Assembly (NCBI RefSeq): GCF_034351645.1
Contig: NZ_CP133782.1
Coordinates: forward strand, 4,990,001-5,054,000
Reading direction: 5' to 3'
DNA length: 64,000 nt
From: Pseudomonas sp. DC1.2
GTDB lineage: Bacteria > Pseudomonadota > Gammaproteobacteria > Pseudomonadales > Pseudomonadaceae
The notes beneath the pieces were generated by a model, which was given only the letters and a program-made list of their open reading frames with translations, did not search any database and had not been told where the DNA came from. Both the position numbers and the translations under genes were made by a program. Shown in pieces: positions 4,118 through 20,347 of the stretch (positions are counted from its first letter, which is position 1; each line of letters opens with the position of its first letter).

Positions 4118-5152
4118 TTATGGAAGCATGCCTGCGTGAGACAAGCCCAAGCGTTCATCCAGCCCGAACAAGATGTTCAAGTTCTGCACCGCCTGACCCG
4201 ACGCGCCCTTGACCAGGTTATCGATCACCGACAACACCACAACCAGGTCACCATCCTGCGGACGATGCACGGCAATACGGCACACGTTTGCCCCGCGCAC
4301 ACTGCGGGTTTCAGGATGGCTACCGGCCGGCATCACATCGACGAACGGCTCGTTGGCGTAACGCTTTTCAAACAGTGCTTGCAGGTCCACGGAACGATCA
4401 ACGACGGTCGCATAAAGTGTCGAATGAATGCCGCGAATCATCGGGGTCAGGTGCGGAACGAAGGTCAAACCGACTTCCTTGCCGGACGCAAGACGTAGTC
4501 CTTGGCGAATTTCCGGCAGGTGACGATGCCCTTTTACTGCGTAGGCCTTCATGCTTTCCGACGTTTCGGAATAAAGCGAACCGACAGAAGCACCACGACC
4601 GGCACCGCTGACACCGGATTTGCAGTCAGCTATCAGACGCGAAGTATCCGCCAGACCCGCCTCAAGCAACGGCAGGAAACCCAATTGCGTAGCAGTCGGA
4701 TAGCAACCGGGCACGGCAATCAGACGTGCATGCTTGATCTGCTCACGATTAACTTCCGGCAAGCCGTAAACTGCCTCTTCCAGCAACTCTGGCGCACCAT
4801 GAGGCTGACCGTACCATTTAGCCCATTCATCGGCGTCTTGCAGGCGGAAGTCTGCCGACAGGTCGATGACCTTGGTCCCGGCAGCCAGCAACTCACCTGC
4901 CAATGCATGGGCCACACCATGAGGCGTGGCAAAGAACACCACGTCACAGGCACCCAAGGTTTTGATGTCAGGCACGCTGAACGCCAAACCATCGTAGTGG
5001 CCTCGCAGGTTCGGATACAGGTCGGCCACAGGCAGGCCAGCCTCGGATCGAGAAGTAATGACCACCACTTCCGCTTGCGGATGCTGTGCCAACAGACGCA
5101 GCAGTTCGACACCGGTGTAACCCGTGCCGCCGACGATACCGACCTTGACCAT
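4118..5152 (-). CDS. argC: N-acetyl-gamma-glutamyl-phosphate reductase
   Basis: ArgC reduces N-acetylglutamyl phosphate to the semialdehyde with NADPH, the third step of arginine synthesis. The 344-residue product begins [14 protein letters not shown], the Rossmann nucleotide loop. The active-site Cys lies in VPGCYPTA. The frame extends 24 codons further upstream, but the ATG at 5152 has a good ribosome site (GAGGGCAGG) and the family's start. It is monocistronic here, diverges from hemJ and has its own terminator at 4072-4098. Confidence 0.96.
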
Positions 5153-5287
5153 AAACCTGCCCTCAACGAACCCACTGGAAAGCCGTCGATAATAGGGGGC
5201 ACGCAGCCCTGCGACAACCGCCAAGGTGACGCGCGGCCGCTCAAGCCTCTACTATTCGGACTACCGTGAACCTGGGAATAACTAAAA

Positions 5288-5719
5288 ATGCTTTATCTAT
5301 GGCTCAAAGCGCTTCACATCGTCAGCATGGTCTGCTGGTTTGCCGGCCTATTCTATCTGCCGCGACTGTTCGTCTACCACGCTCAAAGTGAAGACACTGT
5401 CAGTAAAGAACGCTTCAGCATCATGGAGCGCAAACTTTACCGCGGCATCATGGGTCCGGCGATGATCGCCACTCTGGCCTTCGGCATCTGGCTGATCAGC
5501 CTCAATCCAAGCGCGTATTTCGGCCAAGGCGCCTGGATGCACGCCAAGTTGACACTTGTGGTGATCCTCATCGGCTATCACCATATGTGCGGCGCGCAAG
5601 TAAAACGTTTTGCCCGTGGCGAAAACACCCGCAGCCATGTCTTTTATCGCTGGTTCAATGAAGTGCCGGTTCTGATATTGCTGGCTATCGTAATTCTGGT
5701 CGTCGTTCGCCCGTTCTAA
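5288..5719 (+). CDS. hemJ: Protoporphyrinogen IX oxidase HemJ
   Basis: A 143-residue membrane protein with four predicted helices. HemJ oxidises protoporphyrinogen IX to protoporphyrin IX, the step before ferrochelatase in haem synthesis, in bacteria that lack HemG or HemY. The conserved His and Trp of helix 1 are visible in KALHIVSMVCWFAGL, with YHAQSE just after and the basic loop RKLYRGIMGP before helix 2. Length and motifs fit the HemJ (UPF0093) family. It diverges from argC and is followed 33 bases later by the nitronate monooxygenase gene, possibly on one transcript. Confidence 0.9.
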   Translation: MLYLWLKALHIVSMVCWFAGLFYLPRLFVYHAQSEDTVSKERFSIMERKLYRGIMGPAMIATLAFGIWLISLNPSAYFGQGAWMHAKLTLVVILIGYHHMCGAQVKRFARGENTRSHVFYRWFNEVPVLILLAIVILVVVRPF

Positions 5720-5752
5720 ACCAATAAGCCATTACTCACCGGGGTACTTCCA

Positions 5753-6721
5753 ATGTCGCTGCCCGCGCTACTCGACCAACGTTTGCGCCTACCTGTTGTG
5801 GTGGCGCCGATGTTTCTGATCTCTAACCCTCAACTGGTGCTTGCCTGCTGTCGCAATGGCATCGTGGGCAGCTTTCCTGCGCTGAACCAGCGTGAAAGCA
5901 GTGGCTTCAAGGCCTGGCTGGAAGAGATCGAAGCGGGGCTGGCGATATTGGAAAATCCGGCACCTTATGCCGTGAATCTTATCGTTCACAACAGCAATCC
6001 ACGCCTGCAAGCGGATCTGGACATCTGCGTCGAACATAAAGTCCCGATCGTGATCACCAGCCTCGGAGCCGTAAAAGAACTGGTCGATGCCGTCCACAGC
6101 TATGGAGGCTTGGTATTCCATGATGTGACCACCCGCCGCCATGCCGAGAAAGCTGCCGAAGCTGGCGTGGACGGGCTCATCGCTGTCGCCGCAGGCGCCG
6201 GTGGACACGCCGGCACCTGGAGCCCATTCTCGCTGATTGCCGAGATCCGCCAATTCTTCGACAAGACCCTGTTACTCGCGGGCTGCCTGAACCACGGCCA
6301 CGAGATTCTCGCGGCACAATTGCTCGACGCGGATCTGGCCTACTTCGGTACGCGATTTATCGGCACCACTGAAAGTCATGCGCCTGACGCCTACAAGCAG
6401 ATGCTGCTGACTTCCAAGGCAGCCGACATCGTTCATACTCCCGCTGTCTCCGGAGTACCGGCAAGCTTTATGCGCCAGAGCCTGGAGAATGCCGGTTTCG
6501 ACATGGCAACACTGCAAGGTAAGGGCGAAATGAATTTCGGCTCAAAGCTAAAGCCATTGAGCGATGAAGCCAAAGCCTGGAAAACCGTGTGGTCCGCCGG
6601 ACAAGGCGTCGGAGAAATCAATGACCTGCCAAGTGTCGATCAGTTGATTGCGCGGCTGGACGCCGAGTACCGCAAGGCGCAGGAACTCGCCGCACAGTTG
6701 CCCAAACGCTGGCCACGCTGA
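5753..6721 (+). CDS. Nitronate monooxygenase family flavoprotein
   Basis: A 322-residue TIM-barrel FMN protein of the 2-nitropropane dioxygenase/nitronate monooxygenase family. These enzymes oxidise alkyl nitronates such as propionate 3-nitronate. Family signatures include VVVAPMFLIS near the N-terminus and the FMN-phosphate loop AAGAGGHAGTWS near residues 146-157, which contains the candidate catalytic His. A second glycine patch, YFGTRFIGTTES, sits near residue 200. The real substrate is not known from sequence. It could share a transcript with hemJ. Confidence 0.85.
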   Translation: MSLPALLDQRLRLPVVVAPMFLISNPQLVLACCRNGIVGSFPALNQRESSGFKAWLEEIEAGLAILENPAPYAVNLIVHNSNPRLQADLDICVEHKVPIVITSLGAVKELVDAVHSYGGLVFHDVTTRRHAEKAAEAGVDGLIAVAAGAGGHAGTWSPFSLIAEIRQFFDKTLLLAGCLNHGHEILAAQLLDADLAYFGTRFIGTTESHAPDAYKQMLLTSKAADIVHTPAVSGVPASFMRQSLENAGFDMATLQGKGEMNFGSKLKPLSDEAKAWKTVWSAGQGVGEINDLPSVDQLIARLDAEYRKAQELAAQLPKRWPR

Positions 6722-6815
6722 AAGGAAAACTTGGCCAGCCTTGACCGGCTGGCTTTACACTCCGCGCCTACAGCCTTTTCTATTTAAAAAAATTTGTGAC
6801 AAGGATGCCTCGGCC

Positions 6816-7793
6816 ATGAGCGAAAACCGGTTCAAGATTGTCTTCGACGGCGCCTTGCTGCCAGGCGTTGATGTTGCCACCGCAAAACTCAATATCGCCG
6901 AGCTGTTCAAAAGCGATGTGGAAGCCATCGAACGGCTCTTTAGTGGCCATTGCGTAGCGCTCAAACGTGACCTGTCACAAGCAGATGCGCAGACCTACCT
7001 TCAAGCACTGAAGAAAACCGGAATCGATGCGCGCATCGAAGCAGAGCCCGCCATCGAGCTGAACTTGTCAGACGTCCACGAGCATCATCACGCCAACGAC
7101 CCAACGCTGTCGCCTGCCCCACAATCCCCTTACGCTCCTCCTCAGGCAAGTGTCGGTGAAACGCTGCCCGAGTTCGCCACACTCAAACCCTTCAGCATTG
7201 AGGGGCGCATCGGTCGCTTGCGCTTCCTCGCATGGACGATGGTGCTGGCGCTGGTCATGCTGATGACCGTCGCTGTATTTGCCTCGATAGCACTCACGCT
7301 CATAAGCGCCAACTCCACGGCTGGTTTGGTGATCGGTGGTCTGCTGGCAGCGCTCCTCTGCGTAGCGTTTGCGTTCATCAGCATCCAGATCAGCGTGCAG
7401 CGTTTGCACGACATCGGCTGGTCCGGCTGGCTCTGGCTGCTGAGCCTGGTGCCCTTCGTGGGCAGCTTTTTTCCGTTTGTACTGATGATTGCCCCCGGCA
7501 ACAACATCGCCAATCGATACGGCGCGCCGCCACCGCCCAACAGCACAGCGGTGAAGGTGTTGTCATCGTTGTGGGTAGCGTTTATTGCCATCATGTTCTT
7601 TGCTGGTTTGTCCGGCGGTATCAGTACTCTACGAAATGAGTACGAAAGCGCCACGGAAACCAGCTATGACAGTGGCTCTGTGACCACCGACGACGTTGAG
7701 GTGGAGCCGGCTGAGTCGGCCGAACAAGCGCCAAATTCAACCGACGATGCAGCCGAAGCAGCCCAGCCCCCTGTAGACTCTGCGAAAGAATGA
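6816..7793 (+). CDS. DUF805 family membrane protein
   Basis: A 325-residue protein of unknown function. Residues 1-80 form a soluble domain. A Pro/Ala/His-rich linker follows, then a DUF805 membrane region of four helices (roughly residues 140-280) with the typical motif VQRLHDIGWSGW. The C-terminal tail is acidic. I took the ATG at 6816 because the longer open frame (from 6648) overlaps the preceding gene and encodes arginine-rich, non-conserved sequence. DUF805 proteins are widespread inner-membrane proteins without an assigned activity, and the neighbours give no clear clue. Confidence 0.8.
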   Translation: MSENRFKIVFDGALLPGVDVATAKLNIAELFKSDVEAIERLFSGHCVALKRDLSQADAQTYLQALKKTGIDARIEAEPAIELNLSDVHEHHHANDPTLSPAPQSPYAPPQASVGETLPEFATLKPFSIEGRIGRLRFLAWTMVLALVMLMTVAVFASIALTLISANSTAGLVIGGLLAALLCVAFAFISIQISVQRLHDIGWSGWLWLLSLVPFVGSFFPFVLMIAPGNNIANRYGAPPPPNSTAVKVLSSLWVAFIAIMFFAGLSGGISTLRNEYESATETSYDSGSVTTDDVEVEPAESAEQAPNSTDDAAEAAQPPVDSAKE

Positions 7794-14983: not shown

Positions 14984-15577
14984 TTAGCGCATGCCGCCGG
15001 TTTGTTTGAGGAAGTTGGCGAACAGCTCATGGCCCTGTTCAGTGAGGATCGACTCAGGGTGAAACTGCACCCCCTCGATGTTCAGCGTTTTGTGGCGCAG
15101 GCCCATGATCTCGTCCACAGAGCCGTCCTCAAGTTGGGTCCAGGCGGTCAGCTCCAGGCAATCGGGCAGGGTCTCGCGCTTGACGATCAACGAGTGATAA
15201 CGCGTCACGGTCAGCGGATGGTTCAACCCTTCGAAAACGCCCTTGTCCTCATGGAATACCGGACTAGTCTTACCGTGCATGACCTGACGGGCGCGAACGA
15301 CATCGCCGCCAAAGGCTTGGCCGATGGACTGGTGGCCCAGGCAAACCCCCAGAATCGGCAATTTACCCGCGAAGTGCTTGATGGCTTCGATGGAGATGCC
15401 GGCTTCGGTCGGGGTGCAAGGACCTGGGGACACCACGATGCGCTCTGGGTTGAGCGCTTCAATTTCGGCAATGGTGAGTTCGTCATTGCGCACTACTTTA
15501 ACCTGGGAGCCTAGCTCGCCCAGGTACTGCACAACGTTGTAAGTAAATGAGTCGTAGTTGTCGATCATCAGCAACAT
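14984..15577 (-). CDS. trpG: Anthranilate synthase component II (glutamine amidotransferase)
   Basis: TrpG releases ammonia from glutamine for anthranilate synthase. In this group it may also serve aminodeoxychorismate synthase. The 197-residue class I amidotransferase has its nucleophile Cys79 in GVCLGHQ and the His-Glu pair in VQFHPESIL. It heads trpGDC. It is separated from its partner trpE (2.4 kb away) by estA on the opposite strand, so the two subunits are made from separate transcripts. Its 5' leader (15578-15815) carries attenuator-like structure. Confidence 0.97.
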
Positions 15578-15742
15578 GGCGTGTAGGACCTCTTGAATTC
15601 ACTGACTTTAAAAATGGCCTTCGAATGATTTACCCGCAGTGCGCTGCGCGTTGCCAGGTGCTGGAGCTACGCCAGCAAAGCGGCATTTGAGACGGGTAAA
15701 GAAGGCAAAGCGATACAGGTCGGCGGGGCCGGCCAAAAAGAT
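15578..15742 (-). promoter_or_regulatory. Candidate transcription attenuator in the trpGDC leader
   Basis: Between the putative leader peptide and trpG the transcript can fold into a large stem. On the plus strand 15617-15622 (GCCTTC) pairs with 15701-15706, and 15629-15636 (TTTACCCG) with 15693-15700. The transcript then continues with CATTTTTAAA, like a terminator. Two smaller hairpins sit inside the loop (15635-15648 and 15660-15676). Attenuation of trpE and of trpGDC has, to my recollection, been reported in P. putida. The pairing here is read by eye, not computed. Confidence 0.6.
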
Positions 15743-15811
15743 TCAGGCGCGCCAACGCCAACGGGCGTGTGCCTTGATGACTTGATCCAAGAGTTTGCGG
15801 ACGATCAACAC
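15743..15811 (-). CDS. trpL: Putative trp leader peptide upstream of trpG (gph tail copy)
   Basis: A 22-codon frame with a GTG start at 15811 ends in RWRWRA-stop, with two closely spaced Trp codons just before the stop, as expected of a tryptophan attenuator leader. The stretch 15727-15811 aligns with the 3' end of gph and the bases after it (19512-19598), with about three quarters of positions identical by eye. The frame and the RWRWRA tail are kept. The ribosome site is poor and no experiment supports translation, so it could instead be a non-coding relic of a duplication. Confidence 0.5.
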   Translation of the reverse strand: MLIVRKLLDQVIKAHARWRWRA

Positions 15812-15986
15812 GGGGAAGGTCTCATTTATGCGTCCGGGCACAGTAACTTAGCTGGGCAGGGCGTGCAATATGGCGGTGCCGGTGGCTTGCGAAACAATCG
15901 AAGGGGTTCGCGACGGATGGCAAAAGGCCGAGAGTTTTTGGTACTGTCGTTTCGTTTCATACAACAATAAATAAACGGACTTGCTC
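15812..15986. other. Divergent promoter region of the trpGDC leader and estA
   Basis: About 175 bases lie between the leader peptide start and the estA ATG. It must hold promoters for both directions. I see no clear consensus pair, and the estA ribosome site (ACGGAC) is weak. Confidence 0.4.
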
Positions 15987-17897
15987 ATGATCAAACAGAA
16001 GTTGTTTGTACCGCTCACCGGATGCCTGCTCGCCATAGCCTGCGCCCAAGCAATCGCGGCGCCCAATCCTTATTCAAACTTCGTGGTCTTCGGCGACAGC
16101 CTCAACGATGCCGGGCAGTTTACCGATACGGGCGGTCCCGCCGGCGCCACGCAACGCTACACCAACCGCACCGGTCCGCTTTATCAGGACGGTAGCGGTG
16201 AATTGCGCTCGCTGAACTCCACGCAATTGCTGGGCGGAAAACTCGGGTTCACGCCGAACCAGACTGCCGCCTCGACCTCGGCAGTACGCGCCGGCGAAGG
16301 CTTGCCGGACGGTAACAACTGGGCCACCGGCGGTTACCGCACGGACCAGATTCTAGACTCGATCACCAGCACTTCCGCCACCGGCGAACGGACTCGTGCC
16401 GGGTACCTGCCGACGAATAATTTCCGTGCCGATCCGAATGCGCTGTATTACCTGTCGGGCGGGGGCAACGACTTTCTGCAAGGTCGCGTGCTCAGCCTCG
16501 ATCAAGCCAATGCCGCCGCCGATCGATTGGTGAGCAGCGTGCAGGCACTGCAAAGCGCTGGCGCCAAATACATCATGGTCTGGCTGCTGCCAGACATTGG
16601 ACTGACGCCCGCCGTCAACGGCACTCCGCTGCAAGCCTTTACGTCGCAACTCAGCGCCCAGTTCAACAATGAACTGGTGAGTAAACTACAAACGGTCAAC
16701 GCCGAGATCATTCCGCTCAACATTCCGCTGCTGCTCAAAGAGACGTTCGCCAACCCGGCGCAATTCGGGCTGGCCACCGATCAGAACCTGACGGCGACTT
16801 GTTTTAGCGGCGACAGCTGCACCGAAAACGCCCGATATGGTATCAACAGTGCCACGCCGGACCCGACCAAACTGATCTACAACGACTCGGTCCACCCCAC
16901 AGAAGCCGGGCAACGCCTGATTGCCGATTACGCCTACTCCCTGCTGTCGGCGCCCTGGGAACTGACACTGTTGCCGGAAATGGCCCAAGGCACCTTGCGC
17001 GCGCATCAGGACGAATTGCGTAGCCAGTGGCTGGCTGACTGGGAAAACTGGCAAGGCGTCGGTCAATGGCGAGCCATTGTCAGCGGCGGCGGCCAACATC
17101 AGGACTTCGACGACCAACACAGCGCCGCCAGCGGCGACGGCACGGGTTACAACCTGAACATCGGTGGCAGCTACCGCCTCAACGAGGCGTGGCGCCTCGG
17201 TGTAGCCGCCGGTTTCTACAACCAGAAACTTGAAGCAGGCCAGGACAACTCGCAGTACACACTCAACACCTACATGGGCACGGCGTTCGCGCAGTACCAG
17301 CAGAATCGCTGGTGGGGTGATGTAGCGATGACCGCCGGACACCTTGACTACGACAGTCTCAAGCGCAAATTCGATCTGGGTGTTAACGAGCGCGGGGAAA
17401 AAGGTGATACCAGCGGCTACTTGCTGGCCATCAGTGGTCGCCTCGGTTACGACATTGCGCAGTCGGCCAGCAGTCCATGGCACCTGTCGCCATTCGTGAG
17501 TGCCGACTTCGCCAAGGTCGAGGTCGATGGCTATTCGGAAAAAGGCGCCGACGCGACAGCGTTGACGTTCGATGACCAGTCGCGCAACTCCAAACGCCTG
17601 GGCGTCGGTATTCAGGGCAAGTACCAGATCACCCCAATGACTCAGGTATTTGGCGAACTCGCTCACGAGCGTGAATACAACAACGACACCCAAGCGCTAA
17701 CCATCAATCTCAACAGCCTGCCGAACAACCACTTCACACTCGAAGGCTACACCCCGCAAACCAACCTGAACCGCCTGAACCTGGGCGTAAGCCACAAACT
17801 TACCCAGGACCTGGCACTGCGGGCCAACTACATCATTCGCAAGGATGATGACTTCACCCAACAGGGGATTAATGTCGGGGTCAGTCTCGACTTCTAA
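15987..17897 (+). CDS. estA: Autotransporter esterase EstA (GDSL lipase)
   Basis: A 636-residue outer-membrane esterase. In P. aeruginosa EstA displays a lipase on the cell surface and affects rhamnolipid production and motility. A signal peptide (about residues 1-25, ending AIAAP) is followed by the GDSL passenger with nucleophile Ser38 in FGDSLND. The catalytic Asp/His pair is in YNDSVHP near residues 299-302. From about residue 370 comes an autotransporter β-barrel ending INVGVSLDF, with the C-terminal Phe used by the BAM machinery. The frame begins at a TTG at 15981, but the ATG at 15987 fits the signal peptide. It stands alone, opposite in strand to the trp genes on both sides, with its own terminator. 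Confidence 0.94.
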
Positions 17898-17907
17898 ATC
17901 GCTGGCA

Positions 17908-17945
17908 TAAAAAACGCGGAGCCCTCACAGGCGCCGCGTTTTTTT
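17908..17945 (+). terminator. Terminator of estA (and possibly trpE)
   Basis: AAAAAACGCGG-A-GCC / GGC-G-CCGCGTTTTTTT forms a stem flanked by A and T runs between the convergent estA and trpE stops, so it may work in both directions. Confidence 0.9.
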
Positions 17946-17975
17946 ATGCCGATAAACCACAGGTCTGGCGTGAAC

Positions 17976-19457
17976 TCAGCTTTGCGGGGTTTGTTCGGCC
18001 AGCGCCACCGCGCGGAACATGGCGCGGCGCTTGTTCAGGGTTTCTTCCCACTCCAGCGCGGGTACCGAGTCGGCAACAATGCCGCCACCAGCCTGCACGT
18101 GCAACTCGCCGTCCTTGATCACTGCCGTCCGGATCGCGATCGCCGTGTCCATGTTGCCGTTCCAGGCGAAATAACCGACGGCTCCACCGTAGACACCACG
18201 TTTGACGGGCTCCAATTCGTCGATGATTTCCATCGCGCGAATCTTCGGCGCGCCAGACAACGTGCCCGCCGGCAGAATCGCCCGCAATGCATCCATCGCC
18301 GTCAAACCGGCTTTCAATTGCCCAGTGACGTTGGACACAATGTGCATCACGTTGGAGTAACGCTCGATGACCATCTTCTCGGTGAGTTTCACCGAGCCAA
18401 TCTCCGAAACACGGCCAGTGTCGTTACGACCAAGGTCGATCAGCATCAGGTGCTCGGCGATTTCCTTGTCATCCGACAACAAGTCTTTTTCCAGTGCCAG
18501 ATCTGCCTCTTCACTGGCCCCACGAGGGCGAGTGCCAGCAATCGGGCGCACGGTGATCAGGTTGTCCTCGACGCGCACCAGCACTTCCGGCGAACTGCCG
18601 ACAACATGGAAGTCGCCGAAGTTGAAGAAGTACATGTAAGGCGTCGGGTTGAAACAACGCAGCGCCCGGTACAAGTCGATCGGCGCAGCCTTGAAGTCGA
18701 TGGACATGCGCTGAGAAGGCACCACCTGCATGCAGTCGCCGGCCAGGATGTATTCCTTGATAGTGTCGACGGCTTTTTCATAATCGTTCTGGGTGAAGCT
18801 TGAACGAAACACCGGATCAGCCGATTGCTGCTTGCTGAAATCCAGGCCACGGCGCGGGGTAATCGGCTGGCGGAGTTTTTCCAGCAGCGCTTCCAACCGC
18901 ACCTGACCGTGTTCGAAAGCGTCGGCCTGCGAAGGGTCGGCCAGGACAATCGCGTGCATCTTGCCGGCAAGGTTGTCGAACACCACAACGGCATCGGAGA
19001 CCATCAGCAAAATGTCTGGCACACCGAGTGGATCGGGGTTCGGGCACTTGCCCAGACGTTTCTCCACATAACGCACGCAGTCATAACCGAAGTAACCGAC
19101 CAGGCCGCCATTGAAGCGCGGCAGGCCAGGGATGGACGGTACGTTGTAACGGGCTTTGAATTCTTCGACGAAGGCCAATGGGTCTTCGGCTTCGTGGCTT
19201 TCGATCTCGATGCCGTCGTGGGTCACGCTGATGTGGTGATCATGAACCCGTAGTACCGTGCGACACGGCAAGCCGATGATCGAGTAGCGGCCCCACTTTT
19301 CGCCGCCCTGCACCGACTCCAGCAAGTAGGAGTTGGGCTCGTCGGCCAGTTTCAGGTAGATCGACAGCGGTGTGTCGAAGTCGGCCAGGGTTTCGCAGGC
19401 CATCGGGATACGGTTATAGCCGGCAGCGGCCAAACGCAGGAATTCTTCGCGGATCAT
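17976..19457 (-). CDS. trpE: Anthranilate synthase component I
   Basis: TrpE converts chorismate to anthranilate with ammonia from TrpG. It is the tryptophan-inhibited entry enzyme of the pathway. The 493-residue product has the N-terminal allosteric domain ([18 protein letters not shown], containing the LLES tryptophan-binding motif) and the C-terminal chorismate-binding domain with [19 protein letters not shown] and [11 protein letters not shown]. It follows gph by 72 bases on the same strand (rpe-gph-trpE). The leader between gph and trpE, together with the end of gph, looks like an attenuator. Confidence 0.97.
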
Positions 19458-19501: not shown

Positions 19502-19538
19502 CGCGCCGGGGGGCCGGCCAGGAACAAGTCAGGCGCGC
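19502..19538 (-). promoter_or_regulatory. Candidate attenuator between gph and trpE
   Basis: On the minus strand GCCGG-CCCC-CCGGC (19505-19518) forms a small GC-rich hairpin followed by GCGTTTGC, a weak terminator. An alternative stem pairs GGCGCG at 19532-19537 (the last codons of gph, just after its Trp codons) with CGCGCC at 19502-19507, which would break the terminator. This is the usual logic of an attenuator, but the stems are short and were found by eye. Confidence 0.45.
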
Positions 19539-19573
19539 CAACGCCAGCGGGCCAGGGCCTTGATGACTTTCAT
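19529..19573 (-). CDS. trpL: Possible trpE leader peptide nested in the gph 3' end
   Basis: An in-frame ATG at 19573 inside gph would give the 14-residue peptide [14 protein letters not shown], with paired Trp codons at the end, directly before the candidate attenuator. The same tail recurs in front of trpG. It may not need its own start, because ribosomes finishing gph would also read the Trp codons. No good ribosome site is seen. Confidence 0.35.
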   Translation of the reverse strand: MKVIKALARWRWRA

Positions 19574-20347
19574 CCAGAGTTTGCGAGTGACCACCACGAT
19601 GGCGTTTCCAAAAGGGGGTTGAACAGCGTCGGGCAACGTTATCTCAGCCGCCAGATCCAGGCAACCGGGAATTAGCTTGCGCAGATCGTCGATGACCAGC
19701 GCCGGCAACTCTTCGGCAATCGGCCGGCCATGGTTATAGCCGTAACTAAGCGCCACGCACTTGACCCCGGCCGCTTTCGCCGCTAGTACATCGCTCCGTG
19801 AGTCGCCAATAAACAACGATTGTGACGCTGGAATGTTGGCCATTTTCATCACGAAAAACAGTGCTGCGGGGTCAGGCTTTTGCTGCGGCAGGGTGTCGCC
19901 ACCAATGATCCACTTGAAGTAGCGGCCGATTTTCATCTGATCCAGCAGCGGCGCAACGAAGCGCTCAGGTTTATTGGTGATCAATGCCATCTCGACCCCC
20001 TGCTTGTGCAGCCATTTGAGGGTGTCACGCACGCCGGGATAAACCACTGTCAGCTCATGGCTTTCGCTGTAAGCCTCCATGAACATCTCCAGCGCCGCTT
20101 CCGCCTCGCCGTCATCGACCGCCGAATGATCAATGCCGCCAGCCAGCGCTCGACGAACCAGTACCGGTGCGCCGTTGCCGACCCACTCACGTACCGACTC
20201 AATGCCAGCAGGTTTTCGGCCGAGCTTGAGCAGCATGTTATCCACCGCCACTGCGAGGTCCGGAACCGAATCGATCAGCGTGCCATCCAGATCGAACATC
20301 ACCAGCCGCGGCAGTCGCCCCGGGAACAACTGCTCAAAACCACTCAT
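19529..20347 (-). CDS. gph: Phosphoglycolate phosphatase
   Basis: A 272-residue HAD-family phosphatase that removes 2-phosphoglycolate formed during DNA repair. The nucleophile Asp is in [15 protein letters not shown] near residues 19-26. Other HAD motifs follow: ITNKPERF (motif II), Lys in QQKPDP (motif III) and [14 protein letters not shown] (motif IV). The basic C-terminal tail, [18 protein letters not shown], lies beyond the HAD core. Its Trp codons sit just before trpE and may serve attenuation. The start overlaps the rpe stop by 4 bases. Confidence 0.95.

Follow-up and report, generated by a model that had tools for sequence, protein, structure and literature searches.

In Escherichia coli, the trpL attenuator encodes a short leader peptide in which two Trp codons lie near each other, and RNA stems follow just downstream. 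The gene miaA acts in tRNA modification. According to its title, a study of Pseudomonas putida (Olekhnovich and Gussin 2001, J Bacteriol 183:3256) concerned attenuation of trpE and trpGDC and the effect of miaA mutations. For P. aeruginosa, passages of an RNA 3'-end mapping study (PMC8297930) place premature ends beside a GTG-started upstream open reading frame (uORF) before trpGDC; these ends passed the authors' cut-off only when biofilms were treated with azithromycin, and the legend concerned cites a study of B. subtilis trpG. In the relevant passage of a paper on P. syringae, tailocins directly adjoin trpG, with trpE and trpD on their far side. In literature searches that covered few subscription journals, no paper linked the leader to gph or phosphoglycolate phosphatase, and among those on trp attenuation in Pseudomonas no title or start of an abstract named a duplication.

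Here we analyzed a 64,000-nucleotide stretch of the Pseudomonas sp. DC1.2 genome (contig NZ_CP133782.1, positions 4,990,001 to 5,054,000), which we refer to as the window. We consider it highly probable that the stretch before trpG in this window serves as leader to a second tryptophan attenuator, a paralogue that arose when the trpE cassette was copied to a position before trpG and that may have let the two genes belong to separate units.

Two related leaders precede trpG and trpE

The trpG gene (14984-15577, minus strand) has a Shine-Dalgarno (SD) sequence, AAGAGGT (15588-15594), 10 nt upstream of its ATG. Further upstream on the same strand, homology and alignment delineate a 22-codon leader ORF with a putative GTG start, MLIVRKLLDQVIKAHARWRWRA-stop (15743-15811). 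It is preceded by GAGACC (15818-15823), which is conserved in the trpG leader alignment and is likely the ribosome-binding site of the leader ORF, and by a promoter predicted from its motif, TTGCAC, 17 bp, TACTGT (15840-15868). The trpE gene (17976-19457, minus strand) likewise follows a leader hairpin (19504-19520), a 22-codon leader ORF with a putative GTG start (19529-19597) and a motif-predicted promoter, TTGCCT, 17 bp, TAACGT (19636-19664), all on the minus strand. This promoter lies within a gene that we take to be gph, encoding phosphoglycolate phosphatase (19529-20347, minus strand), and the leader ORF is in frame with the end of gph. Between trpG and trpE, on the opposite strand, is an estA-like autotransporter esterase gene (15987-17897, plus strand; here called estA). 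Where estA and trpE converge, their ends are separated by a hairpin with A and T runs (17904-17950; minus strand -31.2 kcal/mol, z -4.75), whose sequence suggests that it likely terminates trpE transcription ahead of trpG. Because the opposite-strand esterase gene and this hairpin separate trpE from trpG, trpGDC should need its own promoter.

A first-pass annotation, made from the sequence of the window, had described 15727-15811 as a diverged copy of 19512-19598, with about three quarters of the bases matching. Local alignment confirmed the likeness and exceeded that estimate: minus-strand positions 15812-15721 and 19598-19507 share 78 identical bases at 88 aligned positions, with 8 gap positions, an identity of 89% over the aligned bases, or of 81% when gap columns are counted as well. 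The alignment score was 92, against a mean of 19.5 and a maximum of 31 for 1000 dinucleotide-shuffled pairs. The aligned blocks (15721-15812 and 19507-19598) match the earlier coordinates within a few bases, and 15813-15815, which the annotation had also included, fall outside. The kept frame and shared endings that it had described are borne out as well, as RWRWRA-stop terminates both stretches in the same matching frame. Across the 5.82 Mb genome, the 18-base pattern for Trp-Arg-Trp-Arg-Ala-stop, TGGCGNTGGCGNGCNTGA, was found at two places, which are the trpG and trpE leaders, and the same pattern read backwards had no match in the whole genome.

The likeness extends past the gph fragment, with promoters of the same form, TTGCnn-17-TAnnGT, upstream of both stretches (15868-15840 and 19664-19636). 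Of 87 trpG leaders, 84 carry the motif TTGCnn-16/18-TAnn[GT]T, against a mean of 0.4 after shuffling; for trpE, the motif is present in 102 of 118 leaders, against a shuffled mean of 0.48. At the presumed start position, GTG is found in 24 of the 29 distinct leaders of trpG and, for trpE, in 19 of 34. The sets used for the leader alignment, consensus folds, co-variation, accessibility, cassette tree and promoter motif were chosen by a pattern holding both Trp codons; because this pattern demands both, Trp-codon invariance in those sets is built in, and only the split-locus counts and their shuffles, given below, test conservation.

The trpG leader accompanies the separation of trpE and trpG

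We called a trpG leader where an ORF ending in (R/H)WRW, one or two further residues and a stop was present at most 330 bases upstream of trpG. Three sets of Pseudomonadaceae loci were examined, which may overlap by species (L201 and L065, for example, have contigs of the same length). For the genus set, we searched 149 same-genus genomes, found TrpG homologs in 148 and hand-chose 100 upstream regions; the family set comprised 40 of 55 matching family genomes, and the named set comprised 17 Pseudomonadaceae among at least 80 loci. The leader was found at 87 of 89 split loci versus none of 69 loci in which trpE and trpG are adjacent or have a co-oriented gene between them (among the Pseudomonadaceae examined, in part among the matches listed); the split class includes loci with trpE not found inside the stretch examined, and part of this contrast is inevitable, as 30 of the 41 adjacent gaps checked, at 25 bases or fewer, are too short for a leader. 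By set (101, 40 and 17 genomes), it was found at 62/62, 16/17 and 9/10 split loci and at 0/39, 0/20 and 0/7 adjacent loci, with the third set being among the matches listed. When the upstream regions of the 89 split loci were shuffled, a leader was called in 0 of 89 in each of 20 rounds. In the genus set, estA lies between trpE and trpG in 53 of the 62 split loci.

The annotation had proposed that selection maintains a leader peptide and that its copying was linked to the split of trpE from trpG. Both parts of this interpretation agree with the split-locus counts and shuffles, and the frame and Trp codons are conserved in relatives.

Two split loci, L186 and L215, have no trpG copy. L186 has other sequence before trpG. 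In L215 (Pseudomonas fulva), trpE and trpG are split by estA and the RWRWRA leader is absent; approximately 330 to 280 bases before trpG is a mini-ORF ending FFPQWWRFQ, in which two Trp codons adjoin each other and a hairpin covers the end; from its sequence, it is perhaps a replacement attenuator. Other Trp-rich mini-ORFs, ending QWWWRL, GWWRL and QWWRS, were seen approximately 137 to 185 bases before trpG in L255, L258 and L259 (Salinicola and Billgrantia), where trpE is apart from trpG or was not found nearby, and these may represent convergence. L198 to L200 have a co-oriented gene between trpE and trpG (its ORF being inspected in L198 and L200), which we take to resemble diaminopimelate dehydrogenase; the second leader is absent in all three. 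L321 (OQ658366.1), deposited as a complete Pseudomonas phage genome, has host trp genes at its start: the "carbamoyl phosphate synthase small subunit" at 1052-1657 is TrpG by similarity, with 79.7% identity to the TrpG of the window.

The copied unit is the trpE control cassette

A Trp leader ORF was found before trpE in 118 of 119 loci. Of 92 genomes, 82 have a gph that continues in frame into this leader and uses the same stop; in the other 10, gph ends upstream and the leader is separate. L090, with an unfused gph, is near L077, with a fused gph, on the tree. Among the outgroup loci, Trp-rich mini-ORFs precede trpE, with trpE adjacent to trpG, in L218 (Spongiibacteraceae), L219 and L223 (Marinobacter), L225 (Porticoccaceae) and L234 (Alcanivorax), the chance level of such ORFs not being estimated; none was found before trpE in the other outgroup loci, including a second Porticoccaceae locus of the same gene order (L224). 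Because gph is unfused in 10 of 92 genomes and mini-ORFs precede trpE in outgroups, we regard the trpE leader as the older element, over which gph has grown. On that reading, the C-terminal tail of Gph in the window is the translated trpE promoter and leader. The copied unit is not the 3' end of gph, which the annotation had named as the source, but the trpE control cassette, made up of the promoter that both places share, a leader of 22 codons that includes two for Trp and probably starts at GTG, and a hairpin following the stop.

In L092, a 719-bp tandem repeat (4809-7020, 99.9% identical) covers the end of gph, the leader and the start of trpE. We considered this repeat as a fresh duplication and dropped it, as the assembly is listed with 9% contamination and the repeat may be an artefact.

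Putatively rejoined operons and the age of the duplication

Among 11 adjacent genomes with longer gaps, nine have scars of the trpG leader 3' end in the gap, five of them strong (scores 85-119) and four weak (32-42). None of 100 shuffles reached any of the nine scores, and the loci's own shuffle maxima (28-32) were each below the observed score. L132 and L202 have no scar, and the promoter motif and the peptide are absent from the gap in all 11 long-gap genomes. From these remnants, we take the nine scarred loci to be operons that were rejoined through deletion.

In a cassette tree of 63 tips, copies grouped by position, with 3 changes between the trpE type and the trpG type. In the 57 genomes with both copies, identity was 0.755 between copies of the same genome and 0.749 between cross-genome pairs, while identity within class was 0.846 for trpG copies and 0.923 for trpE copies. 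Because the copies group by position and not by genome, the duplication is old, and it appears from these sequences to predate many of the sampled genera. On a trpG-trpD tree of 85 taxa, leader state changed 22 times, where the tree was rooted on one outgroup tip, and the leader was scored as absent in the 4 outgroup tips as well as in the 2 split loci that have none; because of these 22 changes, we read the history of the leader as one with many losses, transfers or both. We rejected dating of the split by parsimony, as 22 changes over 85 taxa are too many to place gain and loss.

Stems of the trpG copy co-vary

To score co-variation, we performed an arm-swap test, in which pairing of each arm with its own partner was compared with pairing after partners were exchanged among 38 dissimilar trpG leaders. 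Hairpin A, in the region immediately 3' of the leader stop (15718-15734, minus strand), co-varied with a z of 3.15 (3/1000 permutations). Stem B, in which the 5' arm GCCTTCTTTACCCG (15693-15706) pairs in the window fold with the 3' arm CGGGTAAATCATTCGAAGGC (15617-15636), followed by CATTTTT, gave a z of 3.10 (5/1000 permutations), both arms being on the minus strand. Helix C, formed by the leader-stop region and the stretch up to the trpG SD, gave a z of 3.82 (0/1000 permutations); its partner in front of the SD, which pairs with the leader-stop region in relatives, is AAAGTCAG (15602-15609, minus strand). We also scored 60 control window pairs, which had a mean of -0.22, a standard deviation of 1.24 and a maximum of 2.05, with one at 2 or above; these fit helix C sizes only, and permutation is the sole control for hairpin A, stem B and the hairpin of trpE. 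The trpE leader hairpin gave a z of 5.63 (28 representatives), and helix C in the trpE leader gave -1.58 in the same test.

Helix C pairing of at least 8 bp is present in relatives such as L081, L090 and L109, and L078 has a compensated form in which the stop is TAA and the pairing TAACTTC:GAAGTTA. The sequence of the window itself favours another pairing over helix C. We found that pairing of the leader-stop region with the SD proper alone is unsupported (246/2000 permutations reached the observed value), while the AGTCAG segment alone (20/2000) and the wider window (0/2000) were reached less often; relatedness among the representatives is a caveat to the co-variation results, given the 246/2000 of the control segment. 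We rejected pairing between the Trp-codon segment and the hairpin downstream of it, as no co-variation was found (1863/2000 permutations reached the observed value); this is expected if the peptide fixes the sequence. On the annotation's question whether the Trp codons and downstream stems covary, the arm-swap test supports co-variation for three stems of the trpG copy, and none was seen between the Trp-codon segment and the stretch after it.

Terminators, SD accessibility and Rfam

A hairpin followed by a U-run terminator, searched from the first Trp codon on, was found in 22 of 87 leaders of trpG, where shuffles gave 6-11, and in 18 of 118 leaders of trpE, where they gave 3-10. This is a modest excess over shuffles and not a general feature. 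Consensus folds of the whole and clade alignments from three starting points contained no conserved intrinsic terminator after either leader. The window has a Trp-codon hairpin with a T-run, which we rejected as a general terminator, since the T-run is absent in several of the relatives inspected.

We modelled accessibility of the trpG SD in 38 representatives. Its mean was 0.29 when the leader was free of ribosomes and 0.34, 0.42 and 0.44 when a ribosome stood at the first Trp codon, the second Trp codon and the stop, respectively. The rise with the stop region covered had a Wilcoxon p of 1.9e-5, for representatives that are not independent of one another. In the window itself, modelled accessibility falls from 0.29 with no ribosome to 0.23 with a ribosome at the stop. 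No Rfam trp leader was among the matches at E values up to 5, and none reached the gathering score in the window; we rejected two Rfam matches (E 0.86 and 1.5) as chance, neither being a trp leader.

Proposed mechanism and alternative explanations

Our proposal begins with an ancestor that would have had a single leader before trpE, with a promoter, an SD, a 22-codon peptide ending RWRWRA and a hairpin. Gain of a copy of this cassette before trpG would then have made it possible for trpE and trpGDC to be separate transcription units, so that the duplication may have caused or enabled the split. When charged tRNA-Trp is scarce, the ribosome on the leader would slow over the pair of Trp codons, before it reaches the stop codon. 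Its position would set which downstream RNA stems form and hence whether trpGDC is expressed. Ribosome-mediated attenuation is the likely mechanism, and the trpG copy's own stems, including the pairing of the stop region with sequence at or just before the SD, may add control at the level of translation.

One could instead regard the likeness as a decaying, functionless fragment of gph left by a duplication. In keeping with this, the ATG present at codon 9 of the leader in many relatives is no longer found in the window. We nevertheless find such an origin extremely improbable, as the frame, the Trp codons and the form of the promoter are kept across genera, the leader is found at 87 of 89 split loci versus 0 of 69 unsplit loci, and the two copies are old and distinct, such that a useless copy would be expected to decay. 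The cassettes might also be independent in origin, or have been copied repeatedly and recently and kept alike through gene conversion. The mini-ORFs before trpG in Salinicola and Billgrantia (L255, L258 and L259), for which the chance level was not estimated, indicate that such leaders may arise anew. Same-genome pairs, however, are about as alike as different-genome pairs (0.755 versus 0.749), and the grouping by position requires only 3 changes over 63 tips, which makes this explanation quite improbable, if slightly less so than a gph fragment.

A more serious alternative concerns how the trpG copy acts. Its leader-stop region would pair with the ribosome-binding region of trpG, and a ribosome on the leader would open this pairing, making control mainly translational. 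The co-variation of helix C (z 3.82, with -1.58 for trpE in the same test) and the modelled rise in SD accessibility with the stop region covered (Wilcoxon p 1.9e-5, 38 non-independent representatives) point in this direction. Against it, the accessibility effect is small and missing in the window sequence, pairing with the SD proper alone is unsupported (246/2000 permutations), and the premature RNA 3' ends at the P. aeruginosa uORF, as reported in passages of the mapping study, point to transcription or processing. We therefore judge a mainly translational device to be rather unlikely, and we continue to favour a second, paralogous attenuator copied from the trpE cassette.

Implications and comparison with known systems

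If correct, the duplication offers a natural experiment on operon splitting, in which a control cassette was copied, kept in 87 of 89 broken loci and gone after rejoining, with scars in 9 of 11 long-gap cases. It would also account for the Trp-rich tail of Gph in Pseudomonas, the gene having grown into a promoter and a leader peptide, and it suggests why the interval between trpE and trpG tolerates large inserts, for example tailocins. A bolder extension, which we offer tentatively and regard as less likely than not, is that the trpG copy became a distinct device, with a closing helix from stop codon to ribosome-binding site that encloses two stems and provides translational control that the trpE copy lacks, and that the duplication made the trpE-trpG interval a safe site for the esterase gene and, in other lineages, for tailocin clusters.

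Compared with trpL of E. coli, the leaders described here differ in several respects. Their peptides have Trp codons in W-R-W spacing at the extreme end, two paralogous copies are present, U-run terminators are not a general feature, gph is fused to the leader that follows it, and no Rfam trp leader matches. They are like trpL in having a short leader peptide with two Trp codons and downstream stems. The P. putida system, going by the title of the study, has the same two transcription units as this locus, trpE and trpGDC, under attenuation control. In P. aeruginosa, the 3' ends mapped before trpGDC lie at a GTG-started uORF, as here, with neither Trp codons nor a second copy at trpE named in the passages concerned (PMC8297930), and we found that the uORF before trpGDC in the P. 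aeruginosa PACL record has a GTG start and ends IKAFARWRWRA. The trpG and trpE leaders are thus a known kind of control, to which this locus may add, as new elements, the extent of the cassette, the pattern of its retention, the fusion with gph, and a co-varying pairing of the leader stop with the pre-SD sequence, observed for the trpG copy and not for that of trpE.
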